Source of the DNA: Rhodothermales bacterium
GTDB taxonomy: Bacteria > Bacteroidota > Rhodothermia > Rhodothermales > Bin80
Reading direction: 5' to 3'
Assembly: GCA_951812585.1 (NCBI GenBank)
Contig: OX638318.1
Span: forward strand, 400,819 to 464,818
DNA: 64,000 nt
Position numbers and translations under genes: made by a program. Numbering within the stretch: the first letter of the stretch is position 1; every line of letters begins with the position of its first letter. The notes under the pieces are model-generated. The model was not told the origin of the DNA, did not search any database, and saw only the letters and a program-made list of their open reading frames with translations. Shown one piece after another: positions 17,035-30,176 of this stretch.

Positions 17035-19605
17035 CTAACGGCGGCCGCGCGACCTGCGGCGCTTGGGCTTGCCCTTCGCAGCGCGGGCATCAATAAGACT
17101 TACCGCCTCGGCCAATGTGATGGTCTCCACAGACTGATCATCGCGCAAGGATGCGTTCGTCCGCCCATGCTTGACGTACGGGCCATACCGACCCGAACCT
17201 ACGGAAACGTCTTTGCCAGTGGACGGGTGTTGGCCTAAAACACGCATGGACGACCGCTTCTTGGCTGCCAAGAGCTCTAATGCGCGCGGCAACCCGATGG
17301 AAAACAGATCATCGTCCGCCTTCAGCGAGGCAAAGGTCCGGTCCATGCGCACGTACGGGCCGTAGCGCCCCATGCCAACCACGACTACCGCGCTGGTCTC
17401 AGGATGGACGCCAATTTCGCGCGGAAGCGCCAGCAGCTGGATCGCAATGTCAAGGGTGACATCCTCTGGCTGGATCGACTTCGGCAGGGAAACACGCCGC
17501 GGCTTCGCTTGCCCCTTAACGGTCTCCCCCAGCTGACAATACCACCCGTAAGGCCCCTGCTTCAAGTAGATGTCCTGGCCTGTCTCCGGGTACTTCCCGA
17601 GTGGCGCCGCAGAGCCCGCACGCATCTGATCGGCCAACGCAGCTATCTGCTCGGCGGTCACATCACCCGGAAGCCAGTCCAATGGCAACTGTGCGCGCTG
17701 GACGACGCCATCAACCGTGGATTCCAGATACGCACCGTAGCGACCGACACGAACCTCCACATCGTTCCACTTGGGCGAAGTGATCGTTGAAATCTTCCGT
17801 GCGTCAACGGTAACCCTGGCATCGGCTACGCGTCGCGCCAATCCCCCCTCGCCCTGGTAGAACGAGCGCAGGAAGGCGGTCCTGTTGTGAGCACCGGCGG
17901 CAATACTGTCCAGATCCGCCTCCAAAGAAGCCGTAAAGCCCGTATCCACCAAAGGAGCAAAACTGAACTCCAACAGGTTGTTTGAAGCAAATGCCGTAAA
18001 GGTGGCAGCCAGCGCGCGCCCCGTCTTCTGCGCATAACCCACGCGCTGCACCCGCCCCATCACCTCCGCATAGGTGCTCGGCCGGCCGATGCCCTCCTGT
18101 TCCAGCCGCTGGATCAACGAAGCTTCCGTGTAACGCCTCGGAGGCTTGGTTTCATGGGACTGCGCAGCAATGCCCCGGCACGCCAACACATCGCCTTCGG
18201 CCAGACTGGGCAGCAGCTTTTCGCTCTTGGCCAGCGCTGCATCAGGATCATCCGCGCCCTCTACATATGCCCGCATGAAGCCGGGAAAAAGCACCGTCTG
18301 CCCAGTTGCCCTGAACAGCGCCACGGGCTCATCCTGGGCCGCTATCGTCGCCGCGACCTTCCGCAGCTTCGCATCGGCCATCTGCGAGGCCACAGTGCGC
18401 TTCCAGACCAGATCGTAAAGTCGCGCCTCCCGCTTGTCGGTCAGCGGCAATTCCCGCACCGGCAGCATCTTGGTGCCCGAAGGGCGGATAGCCTCATGTG
18501 CTTCCTGCGCATTGCGCACCTTGCCCTTGTAACGACGCGGCTTGCTGCTGAGATACTCGGTTCCGTAACGCGCACGGACGGCCTCACGACTAGCGCCAAT
18601 CGCCTCGCTGGATAGCTGCACTGAATCCGTGCGCATATACGTGATATGCCCCTTTTCGTACAGCTTCTGGGCTACGCGCATAGTCTGCATTGCGGACCAG
18701 CCAAACTTGCGACCAGCCTCCTGCTGCAGCGTAGAGGTGATGAACGGCGCACTGGGTGATCGGCGAGCAGTCTTGGACACCACCTTCGTAACACGCCATT
18801 CGGCCGCCTGGATACGGGATTTCAACGCCTTTGCGCGTTCCTCCTCCAGCACAAGCACCTTGCCCTGAAGCGACTCCTTGAGCACGCCCGTGGACTCATC
18901 AAAGTCCTTGCTCGTTGCTATGCGCTGGCTCCCAAGGTGGGTCAAGGCCGCTTCAAATCGCCTGTCCCCGCTGGCTAATGTGGCCTTGACACTCCAGTAG
19001 TCAGCAGACACAAACACCATGCGCTCCCTTTCACGCTGCACCAGCAGGCGCACCGCAACGCTCTGGACGCGGCCAGCGGACAGCTTCGGCTTGATCTTCT
19101 GCCACAACACAGGCGATACTTCGAATCCCACCAGCCGGTCCAGCACGCGCCGTGTTTCCTGGGCATCCACCAGACGCTGATCAATCTGGCGCGTTTCGTC
19201 CAGCGCGTGCGCAATGGCGCTCCGGGTAATCTCGTGAAACACCATGCGGCGCACCGGCACCTTCGGCTTGAGCACTTCCAACAGATGCCACCCGATCGCC
19301 TCCCCTTCCCGATCCTCGTCGGTCGCAATCAAAAGCTCATCAGCATCTCGCAGCGCTTCCTTAAGGTCGCGAACGACCTTCTTCTTGGCGCTGCTGACCA
19401 CATAGATCGGCTCAAAGCCGTTGTCAATACGCACACCCAGGCGCGCCCACGGCTCCTTGCGATACTTTGCCGGCACCTCTGCGGCAGCAGCAGGCAGGTC
19501 GCGGATGTGCCCCATGCAGGCCATGACCTTGTACCCACGCTTGGGCAGGAACCTGCTGATCGTCCGCGCCTTCGTCGGCGACTCAACAATGAGCAATCTG
19601 TGCAT
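17035..19605 (-). CDS. topA: DNA topoisomerase I
   Basis: Type IA topoisomerase relaxing negative supercoils. The 856 residues begin with a Toprim domain (LLIVESPTKA; acidic triad in ATDEDREGE at about 95-102). The active-site tyrosine is Y323 in ITYMRTDSV. SAGRVQSVAVRL marks the DNA-binding core. The C-terminus carries several TOP1 C-terminal repeats (for example GRYGAYL, GPYGWYC, GRYGPYV twice) instead of Cys4 zinc fingers, then an Arg/Lys-rich tail. It is divergent from ppdK. Confidence 0.97.
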   Translation of the reverse strand: MHRLLIVESPTKARTISRFLPKRGYKVMACMGHIRDLPAAAAEVPAKYRKEPWARLGVRIDNGFEPIYVVSSAKKKVVRDLKEALRDADELLIATDEDREGEAIGWHLLEVLKPKVPVRRMVFHEITRSAIAHALDETRQIDQRLVDAQETRRVLDRLVGFEVSPVLWQKIKPKLSAGRVQSVAVRLLVQRERERMVFVSADYWSVKATLASGDRRFEAALTHLGSQRIATSKDFDESTGVLKESLQGKVLVLEEERAKALKSRIQAAEWRVTKVVSKTARRSPSAPFITSTLQQEAGRKFGWSAMQTMRVAQKLYEKGHITYMRTDSVQLSSEAIGASREAVRARYGTEYLSSKPRRYKGKVRNAQEAHEAIRPSGTKMLPVRELPLTDKREARLYDLVWKRTVASQMADAKLRKVAATIAAQDEPVALFRATGQTVLFPGFMRAYVEGADDPDAALAKSEKLLPSLAEGDVLACRGIAAQSHETKPPRRYTEASLIQRLEQEGIGRPSTYAEVMGRVQRVGYAQKTGRALAATFTAFASNNLLEFSFAPLVDTGFTASLEADLDSIAAGAHNRTAFLRSFYQGEGGLARRVADARVTVDARKISTITSPKWNDVEVRVGRYGAYLESTVDGVVQRAQLPLDWLPGDVTAEQIAALADQMRAGSAAPLGKYPETGQDIYLKQGPYGWYCQLGETVKGQAKPRRVSLPKSIQPEDVTLDIAIQLLALPREIGVHPETSAVVVVGMGRYGPYVRMDRTFASLKADDDLFSIGLPRALELLAAKKRSSMRVLGQHPSTGKDVSVGSGRYGPYVKHGRTNASLRDDQSVETITLAEAVSLIDARAAKGKPKRRRSRGRR

Positions 19606-19798
19606 ACGGCGTCCTCAAGTGATGACCATCGTCAGGGAGAAGCAGAAAGGCCGTATAACGTACAGCAACACGGTTCGTTACACCCACTGGCGGGCTGACA
19701 GCGCAGCACAGGCCATGTCTTCATAGGTACTACATAATCTTACACGCTATTTTGCTGAGCTGTTGAACACTCGAAAATTGACTCTGAATCGAACGGCT

Positions 19799-22435
<2,637 letters not shown>

Positions 22436-22450
22436 GGGCATGCGCGTCTC

Positions 22451-24133
22451 GTGAGCTGGCTGTTTGGATTTGCAGGTCCGGTGACCCCGACCTTGCGGGC
22501 CAAGCTCAGTAGCCATCATGGCGCGCCCTCATGCAGCGCCGAGAGTAGCAGATACTACCTTAAGGCAGGCGGTCTGCCGGTAACCTGCCGGAAGGGGTCA
22601 CTGCGGGGCGGTCAAGGACGATGGCTGGTGGTAGGCCTGGGCTTTGCGCAGCACCGCCTGCTTGACAACGAGGCGTGGGCTTCCGCGCTGTCCGGACCCC
22701 CGGAGACGCTGCGCCAGGTGGACGGGCATTTCGTGGCCGCTGTTGCGGACAAGGATCAGGTCGTGGTAAGGACCGATCAGTTGGGTACGCGAACCTTGCA
22801 CTACGCGCCATATGCGGGCGGCTATGCGTTCTCCTCAAGGCTGGACTGGATAGCCGGACTCTGCGGAGGGCTGGATGTTGACTACGATGCATTCGGCTCG
22901 CACTGGATCACCTTTAATCAGCTCTCGACCAGGAGCCAGGTCCAAGGGCTGTCGCGCCTCGGGCCTGGAGGAGTGCTCACGCTGCGTGGTGGCAAAGCAG
23001 CGGCTGCGGAGCGCCTGTGGGCATGCGACTTCGGCGATACCGACCGGGATGGCGATGTCTTCACGCGCGCCCTGTCCGGATATTGTCGACCCTTGGGCAT
23101 GGGCAAGGTAAGCCTGGGACTTTCGGGCGGATTGGATTCGCGGCTGCTTTTGGCGCTCGGCGCCGAGCACACGCATGTCTTTGGGCCGAAGGACCATATC
23201 GATGTGCGCCTGGCGCAGCGCATCGCAAGAGGCGAGGGCGTGCCACAGCGCCACCTGCACCAACCCTGCGGGGATGCTGAAAAAGCCTGGGGACTCCTGA
23301 TGGCGCGCAGCGAAACCACGCAGGTTGTCTCTGCGGCCTCATCCGTGATGGATCTCGAGCATTACGTTGCCTTGCGTCGGGAAGGTTTCAGCATCATTGA
23401 TGGCGGCTTTGGTGAAGTGGCCCGGCGGCAATTCATGAACCGCCTGCTGCGCTTTGGCAAGGGCTGGGCGAAGCCATCACAGGTCTTGCCACACATCCGT
23501 GTCGGACGCGCGGCGGTGTTCAGCAAGGACGCACAGGCGGCGATGACACGCGGGGCACTGCGCGACATCACGTTTCAGCGCGACGCGCTGCCCAACGGGA
23601 TCAATCCAGAAGACGCCGCAGACCTTATCGGTGTCCGCACGCGGCTTCCCAACTTCTTTGGGCTGGAGCAGAACCGGCTCGACCACCTGGCTGCCTGCCT
23701 TATGCCGTTTGCCCAGCCGTCGGTCTTGCGGGCGCTGTTTCGGCTCCCCTTAGTCCTGCGACGTAATGGCACGCTGTTCAAGAGGCTGATCCGTTCGCGA
23801 AGGCCCGGCCTGGCTCGATATCCACTGGTCAAGGGCGCGACCGTTTATCCGTTCCGCCTGCCCACCCTGGGCGCGCACCTCGTGAGCCGCTTCAAGAAGA
23901 AGGCTGGACTAGCTTATCGCGACCCGCGACCCCACCAGTACCTCGAAGCGGTCAAGCCCTATGCGCTTGATCTGGTACATGCCACCGATGTGCGTACGTA
24001 CGCCGCCTACGACTACCAGAGGCTGAAGCGACTGGTGCTTGGCTATTACGAGGGCCAAACGGCCCTCGCCGGTTCCGTAGACTGGTGGCTGGCCTTTGAG
24101 CTGTGGCGGCAGACCCTCAAGGGACCGCGCTGA
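22451..24133 (+). CDS. Asparagine-synthase-related protein lacking the Cys nucleophile
   Basis: Resembles asparagine synthetase B over 560 residues. The N-terminal Ntn domain is recognisable (FGFAGPV, then RTDQLGTRTLHYA), but position 2 is Ser rather than the nucleophilic Cys, so it cannot use glutamine as AsnB does. The C-terminal half has an intact PP-loop, LGLSGGLDSRLLLAL, for ATP binding and substrate adenylation. Related enzymes include beta-lactam synthetase and amide-forming enzymes of natural products. GTG start, 15 bp after ppdK, so probably in its transcript. The substrate is unknown. Confidence 0.75.
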   Translation: MSWLFGFAGPVTPTLRAKLSSHHGAPSCSAESSRYYLKAGGLPVTCRKGSLRGGQGRWLVVGLGFAQHRLLDNEAWASALSGPPETLRQVDGHFVAAVADKDQVVVRTDQLGTRTLHYAPYAGGYAFSSRLDWIAGLCGGLDVDYDAFGSHWITFNQLSTRSQVQGLSRLGPGGVLTLRGGKAAAAERLWACDFGDTDRDGDVFTRALSGYCRPLGMGKVSLGLSGGLDSRLLLALGAEHTHVFGPKDHIDVRLAQRIARGEGVPQRHLHQPCGDAEKAWGLLMARSETTQVVSAASSVMDLEHYVALRREGFSIIDGGFGEVARRQFMNRLLRFGKGWAKPSQVLPHIRVGRAAVFSKDAQAAMTRGALRDITFQRDALPNGINPEDAADLIGVRTRLPNFFGLEQNRLDHLAACLMPFAQPSVLRALFRLPLVLRRNGTLFKRLIRSRRPGLARYPLVKGATVYPFRLPTLGAHLVSRFKKKAGLAYRDPRPHQYLEAVKPYALDLVHATDVRTYAAYDYQRLKRLVLGYYEGQTALAGSVDWWLAFELWRQTLKGPR

Positions 24134-25509: not shown

Positions 25510-25663
25510 ATCAACCCATTAACTTTAACTCATTAACGTATAGTCGAGCACCTGATACGCCGTGCGTCTACGATTGATTTGGCAGCACGGTTTTTCCAAC
25601 GCATTCGCGCAAATTGGTTATTCTACGGCAAACGCCGACCCGCTAATCAACGCCTCCTATAGT

Positions 25664-26176
25664 ATGCGCGCATCTTGGATCGCATGGCTTGTGCTGCTGA
25701 CTTTTGTTTGGGTGCCTGCCGCTTCATCGGCGCAGTCGCTACGTCCGCGGATCGGATTTGGGCTCACTACCACCGTGACAACAGACTCCGAAAATCCCGT
25801 CGGTCTTGGAGTGCATGTGCGCGGCTCGTTACCGGTTAATCCCGACCTTTCCTTTGGTGTAGATGCGGGCATAGCCGGATTTGTTTTTGGCGGTCACGAA
25901 GAAGCATCCTACTACGCTACGCCGCAGGTGCTCGCCATCGTAACGTTGAATTCAGCGCAGTTTCGGTCACCCTACGTCCTGTTTGGACTCGGAGGATATC
26001 TGCCGCTGGGCGGCAAGACTGAACAAAGCGCAAGCGGGCCATCCATAACCCTCGGCATGGGATGGGCCGTGAGCTTGCAGCAAACCTCGGTCTACTTCGA
26101 ACTGAAACCGTCGCTCGTCATCGCCAAGGATTCGGCCAAGCTCAACCTACCGCTGAATATTGGCGTAGTGCTTTGA
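25664..26176 (+). CDS. Small outer-membrane beta-barrel-like protein
   Basis: Unrecognised 170-residue exported protein. A signal peptide (WIAWLVLLTFVWVP to SSAQ) is followed by alternating hydrophobic/polar strands rich in Gly and aromatic residues (for example PYVLFGLGGYLP and TSVYFELKPSLVIA), typical of a small eight-strand barrel. The ATG at 25664 is preferred to an upstream frame because it begins the signal peptide. Its last 35 bp overlap the end of the convergent gene at 26142. Confidence 0.6.
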   Translation: MRASWIAWLVLLTFVWVPAASSAQSLRPRIGFGLTTTVTTDSENPVGLGVHVRGSLPVNPDLSFGVDAGIAGFVFGGHEEASYYATPQVLAIVTLNSAQFRSPYVLFGLGGYLPLGGKTEQSASGPSITLGMGWAVSLQQTSVYFELKPSLVIAKDSAKLNLPLNIGVVL

Positions 26177-26708
26177 TCTCCAAAGCAACGCGGCGCAAGA
26201 TGGACTGCAGCCGCTCCACATCGTCCCTCAGCAGCCGACTCAGCATCTTGCCCGCTTCCACGACTGCCCGGCTGTCGCCGGCCGGATGCGCCCGCTTAAG
26301 GCCTGACAGCACCACCACAAGAAGGTCATCCGTAAAGGCCGAGGCCTCCGCGTTGATCAGCAGCACGCGCAGGAAGTCGTAGGGCGAAGCGATCTCGCAA
26401 ATCGGCTGGGGCGGCACCGCGAACACCGGCGTATGTATGCGGGGCGGATATGGAGGCAGCATCTGCCGGATGGCCATGCCGAATTCGCGATGGGCTACGA
26501 CCTGCACGCGCACCACCGTCCGAAGCAGCTCCATCACCTGCGGCATCTCGCGCCGGAGCTCGTCCTGCGTCTTTTCCAGCGCGACCGCCTTGCGTCCTTC
26601 ATCCAGCGGCACCATCTCCACGTAACTCACGATTCCGTACGCCTCAATACCGTCCGCGGGCGCTACCTGAACCCACTGCCCGAGTGCAGACAGCTGCTCG
26701 TCGAACAC
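26142..26708 (-). CDS. Hypothetical protein, possible HAS-barrel (HerA N-terminal-like)
   Basis: No firm family call for this ~188-residue protein. The beginning (ALGQWVQVAP, then EAYGIVSYVE) and PPYPPRIHTPVF resemble the HAS-barrel that precedes the ATPase of HerA. The matching upstream frame GRGYVFDEQ suggests the true start may lie a little upstream of the GTG at 26708. No Walker motifs follow; instead there is a helical C-terminus. It sits directly downstream of the broken nurA, the usual HerA partner, which supports but does not prove the idea. Confidence 0.45.
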   Translation of the reverse strand: MFDEQLSALGQWVQVAPADGIEAYGIVSYVEMVPLDEGRKAVALEKTQDELRREMPQVMELLRTVVRVQVVAHREFGMAIRQMLPPYPPRIHTPVFAVPPQPICEIASPYDFLRVLLINAEASAFTDDLLVVVLSGLKRAHPAGDSRAVVEAGKMLSRLLRDDVERLQSILRRVALEIKALRQYSAVG

Positions 26709-26729
26709 ATAACCTCTGCCAGTGGGCCA

Positions 26730-27889
26730 TCACACTACACTACGGGCTCCGCTTGGAGAGCTGCTTGCGGCTGCTGACAAAGTCCGCATTGCGCCTGGCC
26801 ATCTCCTTTCCAGCAAGCGATAGAACAGCATCCGGTCCTTCGCTTTCACCACCGCCTTCTGGTGAGCCTCCGCCAGTATCATGGGATAGCCATCGCCCTT
26901 TTCGCAGTCGCTGACCACCGCCGCGTGCACAAGATCAAGCAGGCTCGGAACCGCTGCCACCCAGCGCAGAATCTCTGCGCGTGCAATCTCCGATGCTCCG
27001 CGCTTGGAAACAACCCTGAGGTAGAAGAAGCAGATGGGGTCCGCCGTGTCGTACGCGCTCAGGATGTGGGAATCGCACGCGAAGAGAGCCGAGCGCTGCC
27101 ACGGTGCAAGAAATGGGTCATACAACGACCGATCCAGTATGCCGGCGACGGTATCCTTTTGCGACTCCTTCGTCTCGCCCCGCAGCCCGCGCAACAGGTT
27201 GACTACCTCCGTACTGTGGGGCATGCGCACGAAGGAGCAGATTGGAATCTGATGCGAACGAAACCGCGCCAGCTGCGTGGCATAGCGAGCAATGAAGTCC
27301 TTCTTCACATGATCGACCTCTATCCGCTGAAGCATCCAGCGAATCAGCGTTCCGTCCGCCATGGCAAGAATCGGGCGACCCTGTCGCTGCACCGCAAGTG
27401 TAAGATTAGCAAAGACTTAAAGCTCCATAAGATCCCGCTGGGCCGACACCACATCTGCCGAGATGTGCGGTACCTCCCCTCCGCTTATGTCCTGGCCTGT
27501 GCCCAAAAGCGTCGCGGCAGCCATCAGTGGACTTTCCAGCGTTCCGTACTGGAAGGCAATCTGGCTTATGTTGAGCAGATATACCAGCGGCATGATGTGG
27601 CGATCCGTGTATATCTGGGATTCATCTGTGGCTACAGCAGGCAGCGGCGTAAGCCGTGCTTTGGGCGTGCTTTGGGAGCGACGCTGCGCGTTGAATCCTC
27701 CAACGGCGTCGCCATCAGCCAGGACACCCTCAGGCCGCGCTGGTGCTGCTGATCCCAAGTATCCGTCTGCGCGCGCAGCAGCTTGCGCGCCGTGGCCAAG
27801 GCCTTCTTGCGCGCGGGCCAAGCCTCCGCCTGCACCTGAGAAAAGCGCGCAAGCTCGCGTGAAAGCTGGGCAATGTTAAGATTGACCAC
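26730..27889 (-). pseudogene. nurA: NurA 5'-3' nuclease, disrupted
   Basis: NurA-domain nuclease that normally works with the HerA translocase in end resection. Three frames carry consecutive family blocks: MVNLNIAQLSREL (from GTG 27889), AVATDESQIYTDRH and YLLNISQIAFQYG, then RPILAMADGTLIRW with later IPICSFVRMPHS. A frameshift between the first two coincides with an exact 11-bp tandem duplication (27655-27676); removing one copy restores the frame. An in-frame TAA at 27417-27419 separates the second and third, one C-to-T change from Gln. A probable further slip near 26800 hides a more family-like end (SSRKQLSKRSP) in another frame, with its stop at 26740. Confidence 0.75.
27655..27676. repeat. 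Exact 11-bp tandem duplication inside nurA
   Basis: CGTGCTTTGGG occurs twice in immediate succession. The extra 11 bp shifts the minus-strand reading frame exactly from that of the upstream block to that of the downstream nurA block. Confidence 0.92.
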
Positions 27890-27921: not shown

Positions 27922-29070
27922 ATGGCCGGGCTCTATATCCATGTGCCGTTCTGCAGACAGCGGTGCACATACTGCGACTTCTACTTTGTCGCCGGCCAAC
28001 GGGACCACAGCGCATTCGTTGCTGCGTTGTGTAGGGAACTGCGCCAAGTCGCGCGCCGTGGATTTAGCGAACCGGTAAGCACCATTTACATCGGCGGGGG
28101 CACGCCATCGCAGCTCACAAGCCAGGACATTGCCCGCATCCTTCGCGGGCTTCGCAAGGCCTACGACGCAGCAGCAGCCGAGGAAGTGACCATCGAGCTC
28201 AACCCGGAAGATGTCACCGCACCGTACCTCCAGGCGCTGAAGAAACTGGGCATCAGCCGCGTGAGCGTGGGCATCCAGTCGTTCTTCGACGACGAACTGA
28301 CCTTCATGAATCGCAGCCATGATGCGCGCCAAGCGCATGACGCCTTGGCACTGGTCGCTGGCGCAGGCTTCAGGAGCTACACCGTGGACCTGATTTTCGG
28401 CCTGCCCGGGCAAACGGAAGACCGCTGGGCTCAGAACCTGGATCGCCTCCGGGCCTTTGATGCGCCACATGTGTCCACCTATTCGCTCACGATAGAGCCC
28501 AAGACACCGCTGCAGAAGCAAGTCGCGCGGGGGCTGGTGTCGCCGCTGCCGGATCAGGCCATGGCCACACTCTACCAGATGGCGATGGATACGCTAAGCA
28601 GCCACGGCTATGAGCACTACGAAATTTCCAGCTTTGCCCAGCCTGGACACCGTGCACAGCACAACAGCCGCTACTGGTCCCATGCCAACTACCTTGGATT
28701 TGGCCCCTCCGCTCATTCGTTCTGGTGGCAGCGGACCGGCGGAGCCGCGCGCTGGCGCAACGTCAGAAGCCTGCGCCAATACGTGGCGCTGATCCGTGGC
28801 GGACAATCCGATGCCGTTTGCGAAGACCATGAAATCCTCTCGCTGCCGGCACTCGGACTGGAACGCATCATGCTGGCCCTCCGCACCGCCGAAGGTGTGG
28901 ATCTTCTTGTGCTTAAGGAGACCTACGACATGGATCTTCTAGCCACAAAAGGCGAAACCATTGCGCGCCTCGCCCAAGCCGGCCTCGTGACAACGGATGC
29001 GCGGTCCCTGCGCCTGACCGACCGCGGCAAGCACATCTGTGATCGCGTGACGGCAAGCCTGCTTCCGTAG
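27922..29070 (+). CDS. hemW: HemW, radical SAM heme chaperone
   Basis: Radical SAM protein of the HemN superfamily; HemW binds heme and is thought to insert it into respiratory enzymes rather than oxidise coproporphyrinogen. The 382 residues show the cluster motif C11-x3-C15-x2-C18 (CRQRCTYCDF), IGGGTPSQL, and GLPGQTEDRW. The additional N-terminal Cys typical of true HemN is missing, as in HemW. It is divergent from the nurA remnant by 32 bp. Confidence 0.9.
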   Translation: MAGLYIHVPFCRQRCTYCDFYFVAGQRDHSAFVAALCRELRQVARRGFSEPVSTIYIGGGTPSQLTSQDIARILRGLRKAYDAAAAEEVTIELNPEDVTAPYLQALKKLGISRVSVGIQSFFDDELTFMNRSHDARQAHDALALVAGAGFRSYTVDLIFGLPGQTEDRWAQNLDRLRAFDAPHVSTYSLTIEPKTPLQKQVARGLVSPLPDQAMATLYQMAMDTLSSHGYEHYEISSFAQPGHRAQHNSRYWSHANYLGFGPSAHSFWWQRTGGAARWRNVRSLRQYVALIRGGQSDAVCEDHEILSLPALGLERIMLALRTAEGVDLLVLKETYDMDLLATKGETIARLAQAGLVTTDARSLRLTDRGKHICDRVTASLLP

Positions 29071-29210
29071 CGGCGAACCGGCCCCACGCACTGCTGCAGC
29101 GGTAACAAGACGCCATGCGCTGCCGCAAGGCGAATGGGTCCAGCATGACGGTAAGGCGAACAGGCTGGACGCGCTGCGGTAAAAGGCTTGGAAGCAACAT
29201 CCCTCGCTTT

Positions 29211-29690
29211 ATGCGTGCGAAGACTGCCTTCTGCCTTATGATCCTGCCGCTCGTGGCGCTGGGTTGTGGACGGGCCGGAGAGCCGGCCCCGGAAACAGGT
29301 ATTCGCGTGGACGGCACGCTGGACTTTGTTGGGAGTGATGGCTCCGTTATTCACGCAATATCCATTGAGATCGCGGACACGGATGCAGCGCGGCAACGCG
29401 GCCTCATGAACCGCCGCGGCATGGCCATTGACGAAGGCATGCTGTTCATCTTCCCGGAGCCGGATTCTCTCAGCTTCTGGATGCGCAACACGGCTATGCC
29501 CCTGGACATCATCTTCGTGGATGCGGAAATGAATATTGTGAACATCGCGGAGCGCACCCGGCCGCTGTCCGATGACTTTATTCGTGCCACGGCACCCGCT
29601 CAGTATGTGGTGGAGGTGCGCGGAGGCGTCAGCGCACGCTTCGGTATCGACGAGCGCACAGCCATCCGCTGGAAACGAAGCAGCCCGTAA
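29211..29690 (+). CDS. DUF192 lipoprotein, copy 1
   Basis: Predicted lipoprotein of 159 residues: signal ending LPLVALGC, then one DUF192 domain with ARQRGLMNRR, GMLFIFPEP and FWMRNTAMPLDIIFVD. DUF192 folds into a small beta barrel of unknown role, generally exported. The ATG at 29211 is chosen because it starts the lipoprotein signal. It is followed after 3 bp by a second, related gene. Confidence 0.85.
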   Translation: MRAKTAFCLMILPLVALGCGRAGEPAPETGIRVDGTLDFVGSDGSVIHAISIEIADTDAARQRGLMNRRGMAIDEGMLFIFPEPDSLSFWMRNTAMPLDIIFVDAEMNIVNIAERTRPLSDDFIRATAPAQYVVEVRGGVSARFGIDERTAIRWKRSSP

Positions 29691-29693
29691 CAG

Positions 29694-30176
29694 ATGCGTA
29701 TACCATCCCTTTGCTTGCTTCTGGTGCTATTCGGCTGCGCCAGTGGTGAGAACAGCCCTGCGCACGAAGCCGCCGCGGAGCCGGACGCCATTCCCTTTCG
29801 CATCGACGGGGCACTGGAAATCGTCCGCGACGGGGCGACCCTGCTGACGATTGACATTGAGATCGCCGACAACGATTCCACGCGGGAGCGCGGCATGATG
29901 CAGCGAAACGCATTTCCTGATCGCACCGGAATGCTGTTTGTATTTGACCAGGCACAGCCGCAGCAATTCTGGATGGGCAATACGCCGCTGGCCCTGGACT
30001 TGCTCTTCGTCGATGCGGATCTGAAGATTGTGGACTTTGCCAAGTATGCCGTGCCCTTTTCCAACGAACCACTCACCTCGCGCGTGCCCGCTCAGTATGT
30101 GCTGGAAGTCCCCGCGGGCTGGGTCGATTCGAACGGCATCGTGGAAGGCGACGAAATCCGCTGGCACCGGAACTAA
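29694..30176 (+). CDS. DUF192 lipoprotein, copy 2
   Basis: Paralogue of the preceding gene, 160 residues. Lipobox LVLFGC; the domain repeats the same blocks (RERGMMQRN, GMLFVFDQ, FWMGNTPLALDLLFVD, and a final AQYVLEVP). The highly conserved MRNT is changed to MGNT here. A 3-bp gap to copy 1 indicates one transcript. Its end overlaps the convergent iscA-like gene by 4 bp. Confidence 0.85.
   Translation: MRIPSLCLLLVLFGCASGENSPAHEAAAEPDAIPFRIDGALEIVRDGATLLTIDIEIADNDSTRERGMMQRNAFPDRTGMLFVFDQAQPQQFWMGNTPLALDLLFVDADLKIVDFAKYAVPFSNEPLTSRVPAQYVLEVPAGWVDSNGIVEGDEIRWHRN

Follow-up and report, generated by a model that had tools for sequence, protein, structure and literature searches.

Introduction

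The closest described systems are the NurA-HerA complexes of Deinococcus radiodurans and of archaea. The Deinococcus complex (entries 7f6d and 7wrw/7wrx) also combines a NurA nuclease with a HerA that carries a HAS barrel and a RecA-like core; in the part of the paper drawn on here, the HAS barrel is the docking site of NurA, via acidic HAS residues (PMC9960219). For Thermococcus, the corresponding excerpt describes NurA as bound by helix α1 and a loop of the HAS domain (PMC12977600). According to the same portions of both papers, the NurA dimer is seated in either organism on a ring formed by the HAS barrels of HerA (PMC9960219, PMC12977600). The archaeal herA and nurA genes sit together with mre11-rad50, as far as this excerpt goes (PMC12977600).

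Here we describe a locus of a Rhodothermales bacterium that is very probably the remnant of a three-gene set composed of nurA, a gene for a stand-alone HAS-barrel protein, and herA.

The nurA pseudogene and its surroundings

The window, i.e. the whole stretch of 64,000 nucleotides that was analyzed, belongs to a 3.2-Mb genome (G000) consisting of one contig. Its family, f1, comprises 16 genomes, G000 included. The features of the locus are:

25562-26176, plus strand: outer-membrane β-barrel-like gene, convergent (Pfam OMP_b-brl, E = 9.6e-5, below cut-off)
26142-26708, minus strand: stand-alone HAS-barrel gene, damaged; 188-residue open reading frame (ORF) from an internal GTG, first two strands gone, reading beyond the stop of the relatives
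26730-27889, minus strand: nurA pseudogene in two-frame pieces; Pfam NurA above cut-off when read through the stop; orthologues intact in G001, G012 and G014
26730-26810, minus strand: frame-shifted 3' end of nurA, flanked by length changes of 1 nt and 4 nt
27417-27419, minus strand: in-frame TAA within nurA; sense codon in G001 and G012 (alignment)
27655-27676, no strand assigned: 11-nt tandem duplication within nurA; two identical copies (27655-27665 and 27666-27676, plus-strand letters)
27922-29070, plus strand: hemW-like gene, divergent, upstream of nurA; aligns with the nurA loci of G001 (60% identity) and G012 (57%)

The initial annotation had reported an 11-bp duplication frameshift and an in-frame TAA in nurA, and both are present in the sequence. 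In an alignment with G000, the genes of G001 and G012 are 11 nt shorter at the duplication site and have a sense codon at the position of the TAA (27417-27419, minus strand). The 3' end of the gene differs as well: compared with G001 and G012, G000 has 1 nt fewer near position 26805 and 4 nt more near position 26742. The basic C-terminus of the protein, which is conserved in the relatives (alignment A2), is missing from G000. Read through the stop, the gene still matches the Pfam NurA family above cut-off (E = 2.1e-16), as does its C-terminal piece (E = 2.9e-14). When a NurA nuclease is defined by a match to PF09376 together with an open frame, G000 thus combines a match above cut-off with a broken frame, while the frames of G001, G012 and G014 are open.

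We also inspected the 53 nurA columns that are invariant in 21 sequences from outside f1. Nine of them are broken in G000, seven in G001 and four each in G012 and G014. Since the three relatives break invariant columns too, residue changes in nurA alone are no proof of decay; the frame lesions are. Substitutions in the C-terminal part of nurA, counted by codon position, gave no clear separation of G000 from G001.

The convergent gene at 25562-26176 ends within the run-on part of the barrel ORF. Similar genes hold the same place in G001, G012, G013 and G014, and the order of barrel gene and nurA is kept there too. The gene at 27922-29070 is called hemW-like on the basis of its sequence. Further out, the window contains a tandem pair of DUF192 family genes (29115-30176, each with E ~3e-31) and an ORF of 560 residues that includes the motif SGGLDSR (22451-24133). 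For the latter, no Pfam family was matched at E ≤ 0.001; it is putatively asparagine-synthetase-like.

Damage to the barrel gene

Open counterparts of both genes exist within f1. The initial annotation had suggested looking in relatives for an intact nurA beside a homologue of the 188-residue protein, and this arrangement is found in G001, G012 and G014, where an open nurA is directly followed by an open barrel gene of ~195 codons. The nurA stop and the barrel start overlap, or nearly so, in all three. Compared with the proteins of these relatives, the 188-residue ORF of G000 begins ~20-30 residues later. A 34-nt gap takes away most of the N-terminal stretch, the ATG is lost too, and the absence of the relatives' stop codon results in an additional C-terminal tail. 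No Pfam family matches the ORF at E ≤ 1. A structural model of the G000 protein reached a pLDDT of 78.1 and is devoid of the first two strands.

The barrel gene of G000 is under relaxed constraint. It shows 23 amino-acid changes found in G000 only, versus nine in the sister genome G001 (p = 0.02). Three flanking genes have no such excess, with 15 versus 19, 29 versus 40 and 11 versus 25 unique changes for G000 and G001, respectively. By codon position, the changes in the barrel gene are distributed 17/18/25 in G000 and 11/6/34 in G001 (Fisher p = 0.013). G000 retains all 13 barrel columns that do not vary in other families, and the loss of constraint is therefore recent. The idea of a decaying NurA module in the initial annotation thus holds with regard to decay, as judged by lesions and relaxed constraint; the 188-residue ORF, too, is damaged, being both truncated and run-on.

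Fold of the stand-alone barrel protein

The stand-alone proteins comprise 188-209 residues and end in a helical tail. An AlphaFold model of the relative from G014 (pLDDT 85.8) resembles the HAS barrels of HerA proteins. A comparison with the HerA chain 9c1m_M resulted in a VIA Z-score of 13.4 and an r.m.s.d. of 2.5 over 105 residues. A Foldseek search identified HerA chains of archaeal HerA-NurA complexes (Sulfolobus, 4d2i; Thermococcus, 9x1l/9x1m) as the best matches, with E = 5.2e-7 to chain 9x1l_A of the Thermococcus complex. The best 50 matches are HerA, HerA-defence or TdpA entries throughout, including as HerA one set of entries titled just "a bacterial protein", which was identified as such. 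The N-terminal barrels of F1 ATP synthase have the same small barrel fold (Z ~10-11 to the G014 model); Z-scores and numbers of aligned residues are, however, lower than for HerA, and the stand-alone protein has no ATPase core.

Pfam agrees with the structural comparison. Of 33 family members, 28 match the HAS-barrel family PF09378 at E ≤ 1 (best E = 8.3e-8), and its cut-off of 25.2 bits is passed by the stand-alone proteins of G018 (32.3), G028 (29.6) and G094 (25.9). The RecA-like ATPase core (PF01935) is absent from the families found for these 33 members; the barrel protein is not a HerA. Judged by the predicted structure, the protein downstream of nurA is a member of a HAS-barrel family, and the HAS-barrel resemblance noted in the initial annotation is confirmed. 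The inter-strand helix region, which contains an invariant Glu and an invariant Pro, ranks with the most strongly conserved portions of the stand-alone family.

Sequence profiles do not connect the barrel proteins with the HerA of the same genome (hhalign probability 0.3%, E = 0.18, 49 columns), so that a recent copy of HerA is not indicated. In a sequence search of solved structures, barrel profile A1 gave no hits and profile A4 gave seven hits at chance level, none of them a HerA.

Intact herA genes and the remnant in G000

The HerA proteins of the relatives have ~550 residues, with an N-terminal HAS-barrel region of their own and a conserved ATPase core. In f1, herA comes after a putative rlmN gene and lies away from nurA. 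At this position G000 has ~6.4 kb of DNA between rlmN and the last ~41 codons of herA:

L091:2496-8914 (G000:C1 ~2110496-2116914): DNA at the herA position of the relatives, with an IS1595-type transposase and an amidohydrolase-like ORF

The transposase (PF12762, E = 4e-40) is flanked by 29-nt inverted repeats. Over 42 residues, the remnant of herA shares 66.7% identity with its G001 counterpart. G000 thus lacks the combination of NurA with an ATPase-competent HerA and has the 3' remnant of herA only.

According to the initial annotation, the locus might represent a HerA that lost its ATPase core. This is contradicted by the separate full-length HerA near rlmN in the relatives and by the 3' remnant in G000. 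The fold of the small protein is indeed that of the HerA N-terminal domain, as expected for a HAS-barrel fragment left behind, but a stand-alone form of ~195 residues is kept in 34 of 395 genomes, 33 of which also have this HerA, and the true remnant of herA lies near rlmN. A truncation of HerA to its barrel is ruled out by the separate herA, and it is scarcely conceivable that the gene is such a fragment; for G000 this reading is refuted.

Two other genomes of f1 have damaged herA genes as well. In G001 a single in-frame TAG is located near codon 42 (L086:6548-6550), though nurA and the barrel gene are open. In G013 nurA, the barrel gene and herA are all in pieces. herA thus seems to be lost early in f1. 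The nurA halves of G013 (C189 ~18494-22822, L007/L089) are split by ~3.3 kb containing an AAA-ATPase-like frame, which resembles transposition proteins.

These observations also bear on the reliability of the sequence. It is very improbable that errors of sequencing or assembly account for the broken nurA and that the system is functional. Single-nucleotide changes alone could be such errors, because the sequence is known from the assembly only. The lesions, however, are several, affect two genes and include an 11-nt duplication and a 34-nt gap; in addition, herA is replaced by other DNA and the barrel gene changes faster.

Co-occurrence of the three genes

We searched 395 genomes of the phylum with profiles for the barrel protein, NurA and HerA. 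Because PF01935 alone is unspecific for herA and also catches other P-loop ATPases, HerA was counted by matches above 500 bits to alignment A5, which was built from these genomes. A further 50 genomes match A5 at E ≤ 1e-10 but with at most 63.2 bits, mostly in the C-terminal part, and were left out of the count. The barrel protein was found in 34 genomes, NurA in 38 and HerA (>500 bits) in 34; barrel and HerA occur together in 33, NurA and this type of HerA in 33 and all three in 32, counts that take no account of shared ancestry. The sole genome with a barrel protein and no HerA is G000, and the sole one with HerA and no barrel protein is G346, which is 81% complete and has HerA and NurA. A barrel protein without NurA was found in G288 only, and NurA without barrel or this HerA type in G036, G067, G121 and G371. 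The relatives fall in Rhodothermales, Rhodothermus, Roseithermus and Chloroherpetonaceae. Within f1, 11 of the 16 genomes have no match to NurA or the barrel protein, and in G012 and G014 nurA, the barrel gene and herA are all open.

Among the 33 genomes with NurA and the barrel protein, the genes are on the same strand, in the same order and at most 3 kb apart in 26 (15 adjacent, 11 non-adjacent), and they are unlinked in the other seven. Nine of the 11 non-adjacent pairs are from Chlorobi-type genomes and have a stretch of about one gene in between. In the three of these loci that were read, the stretch encodes a protein of ~700 residues (L056:6803-8893, L059:6996-9050, L061:4008-6146); the two proteins scanned, from L056 and L061, match redoxin/AhpC-TSA families.

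The alternative of the initial annotation, a distinct two-protein NurA module, is partly supported by these data. The conserved partnership with nurA stands, and the restriction to two proteins does not, given 32 genomes with all three genes; a pure two-protein module was rejected based on the co-occurrence of barrel, NurA and HerA across the 395 genomes. In the open-access literature searched, just two papers name NurA, HerA and the HAS barrel together, and none came up that treats a separate HAS-barrel protein as a partner of NurA-HerA; the FtsK-HerA survey of Iyer et al. 2004 may mention such proteins.

Could the set be a discarded anti-phage defence module instead of a repair machine? Of the numerous HerA models in PADLOC, several are matched by this HerA, with a best E-value of 9.6e-36, whereas NurA and the barrel protein have no counterpart in PADLOC at E ≤ 0.001. 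The identified neighbors of the set, those of herA coming from f1, look like housekeeping genes (the putative rlmN, hemW-like and pyrD-like genes). The presence of the set follows clades, and no relatives were found on plasmids or viral contigs. An origin from a plasmid or virus was rejected, since none of 72,556 plasmid records was matched by tblastn at E ≤ 1e-3 and a scan of viral contigs gave no relative. An antiviral role has been proposed for archaeal HerA-NurA in the part of the literature cited here (PMC12977600). Taken together, we consider a defence module improbable.

AddAB-like genes

Genomes with and without the set differ in their content of AddAB-like genes, defined as open frames of at least 880 residues that match PF12705 at E ≤ 1e-6. 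Among 26 genomes, picked by hand and not at random, 12 of the 14 that lack the set (G000 included) carry an AddAB-like pair, as against 2 of the 12 that have it (Fisher p = 0.0011, uncorrected for the shared ancestry of the chosen genomes and with a profile to which RecBCD would be invisible). As exceptions, G012 and G162 combine the NurA-HerA set with AddAB-like genes, and G013 and G015 have neither.

The pairs of G000, G003, G012 (one of two) and G100 were compared with NCBIfam models (eight proteins), and five proteins of G000, G003, G012 and G162, three of them also in the NCBIfam check, with Pfam. The large partners resemble AddA/RecB models but do not reach the curated thresholds. G003 alone has a smaller partner that passes an NCBIfam cut-off (TIGR03623); the smaller partners scanned with Pfam exceed the PDDEXK_1 cut-off. 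For the genomes scanned, an AddA/AddB-like identity is thus supported, though mostly at scores under the NCBIfam thresholds. The two AddAB-like pairs of G012 are located at C1:139616-143880 and C3:620654-624789, in addition to intact nurA, barrel and herA genes. G012 possibly represents a transitional state. The distribution suggests that an AddAB-like pair may have replaced the NurA-HerA set.

Proposed role and decay of the set

Based on the gene content, the structural models and the described complexes we propose the following account, to which we assign a probability of roughly 0.6 as a whole: a three-gene DNA-end-processing set with the barrel protein at the NurA-HerA interface is decaying in G000, and an AddAB-like pair has taken over. 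The set would consist of the NurA nuclease, the barrel protein of ~195 residues from the gene that follows nurA and, from a separate locus, a full HerA translocase. In the working members of the family, the small protein would most likely be located at the interface of NurA and HerA. HerA HAS barrels are the docking site of NurA, and the matching helix region is well conserved in the barrel family; the small protein would therefore contact NurA by the same helix region, which was matched to the docking helix by topology only. It could adapt NurA to HerA, or load and hold NurA until the arrival of HerA. By analogy with the known complexes, the chances that the barrel protein is an adaptor between NurA and HerA are about even. 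The seven genomes with unlinked nurA and barrel genes, the gene-sized stretch between the two in Chlorobi-type genomes, the weak profile link of the barrel to HerA and the two-protein descriptions of known complexes speak against the account.

The small protein could also be a partner of NurA that stabilizes or inhibits the nuclease and guards its HerA-docking face outside the working complex. The near-overlapping nurA and barrel genes of f1, which suggest coupled production, would fit such a guard, and so would the strong conservation, within the barrel family, of the helix region by which HerA docks NurA. A guard of NurA only would not need HerA, however, and the co-occurrence with HerA is as tight as that with NurA; moreover, 7 of 33 genomes have nurA and the barrel gene apart. 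We regard this role as unlikely.

For G000, the proposed account includes the loss of herA, which would have been displaced by inserted DNA, and a drift of nurA and the barrel gene that is now under way. The AddAB-like helicase-nuclease pair of G000 has probably assumed end resection.

Comparison with known NurA-HerA systems

A third, separate HAS-barrel gene whose presence or absence goes with that of HerA suggests an unrecognized component of bacterial NurA-HerA, and the lineages concerned include the named genera Rhodothermus and Roseithermus. We tentatively propose, at somewhat less than even odds, that the stand-alone barrel is a conserved third subunit of bacterial NurA-HerA in Rhodothermales and Chlorobi-type genomes, and that this machine and AddAB interchange as the main enzyme for double-strand-break resection. 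The AddAB contrast makes NurA-HerA testable as the resection enzyme where AddAB is missing; for archaea such a role is disputed in the cited part of PMC12977600.

A related pairing may exist in cyanobacteria. In the portion of the paper at hand, the list for the UCYN-A1 group names NurA together with a "HAS barrel domain protein", as if both were lost in UCYN-A2 (PMC12234771). By analogy, this may be the same pairing as here. Archaeal HerA-NurA is described with two proteins, and the excerpt mentions no stand-alone barrel (PMC12977600). The Deinococcus complex is likewise described with two proteins, six HerA and two NurA, in the part of the source cited (PMC9960219). Unlike the Deinococcus complex, the Rhodothermales set has a separate small HAS-barrel protein, and its herA is not located beside nurA.
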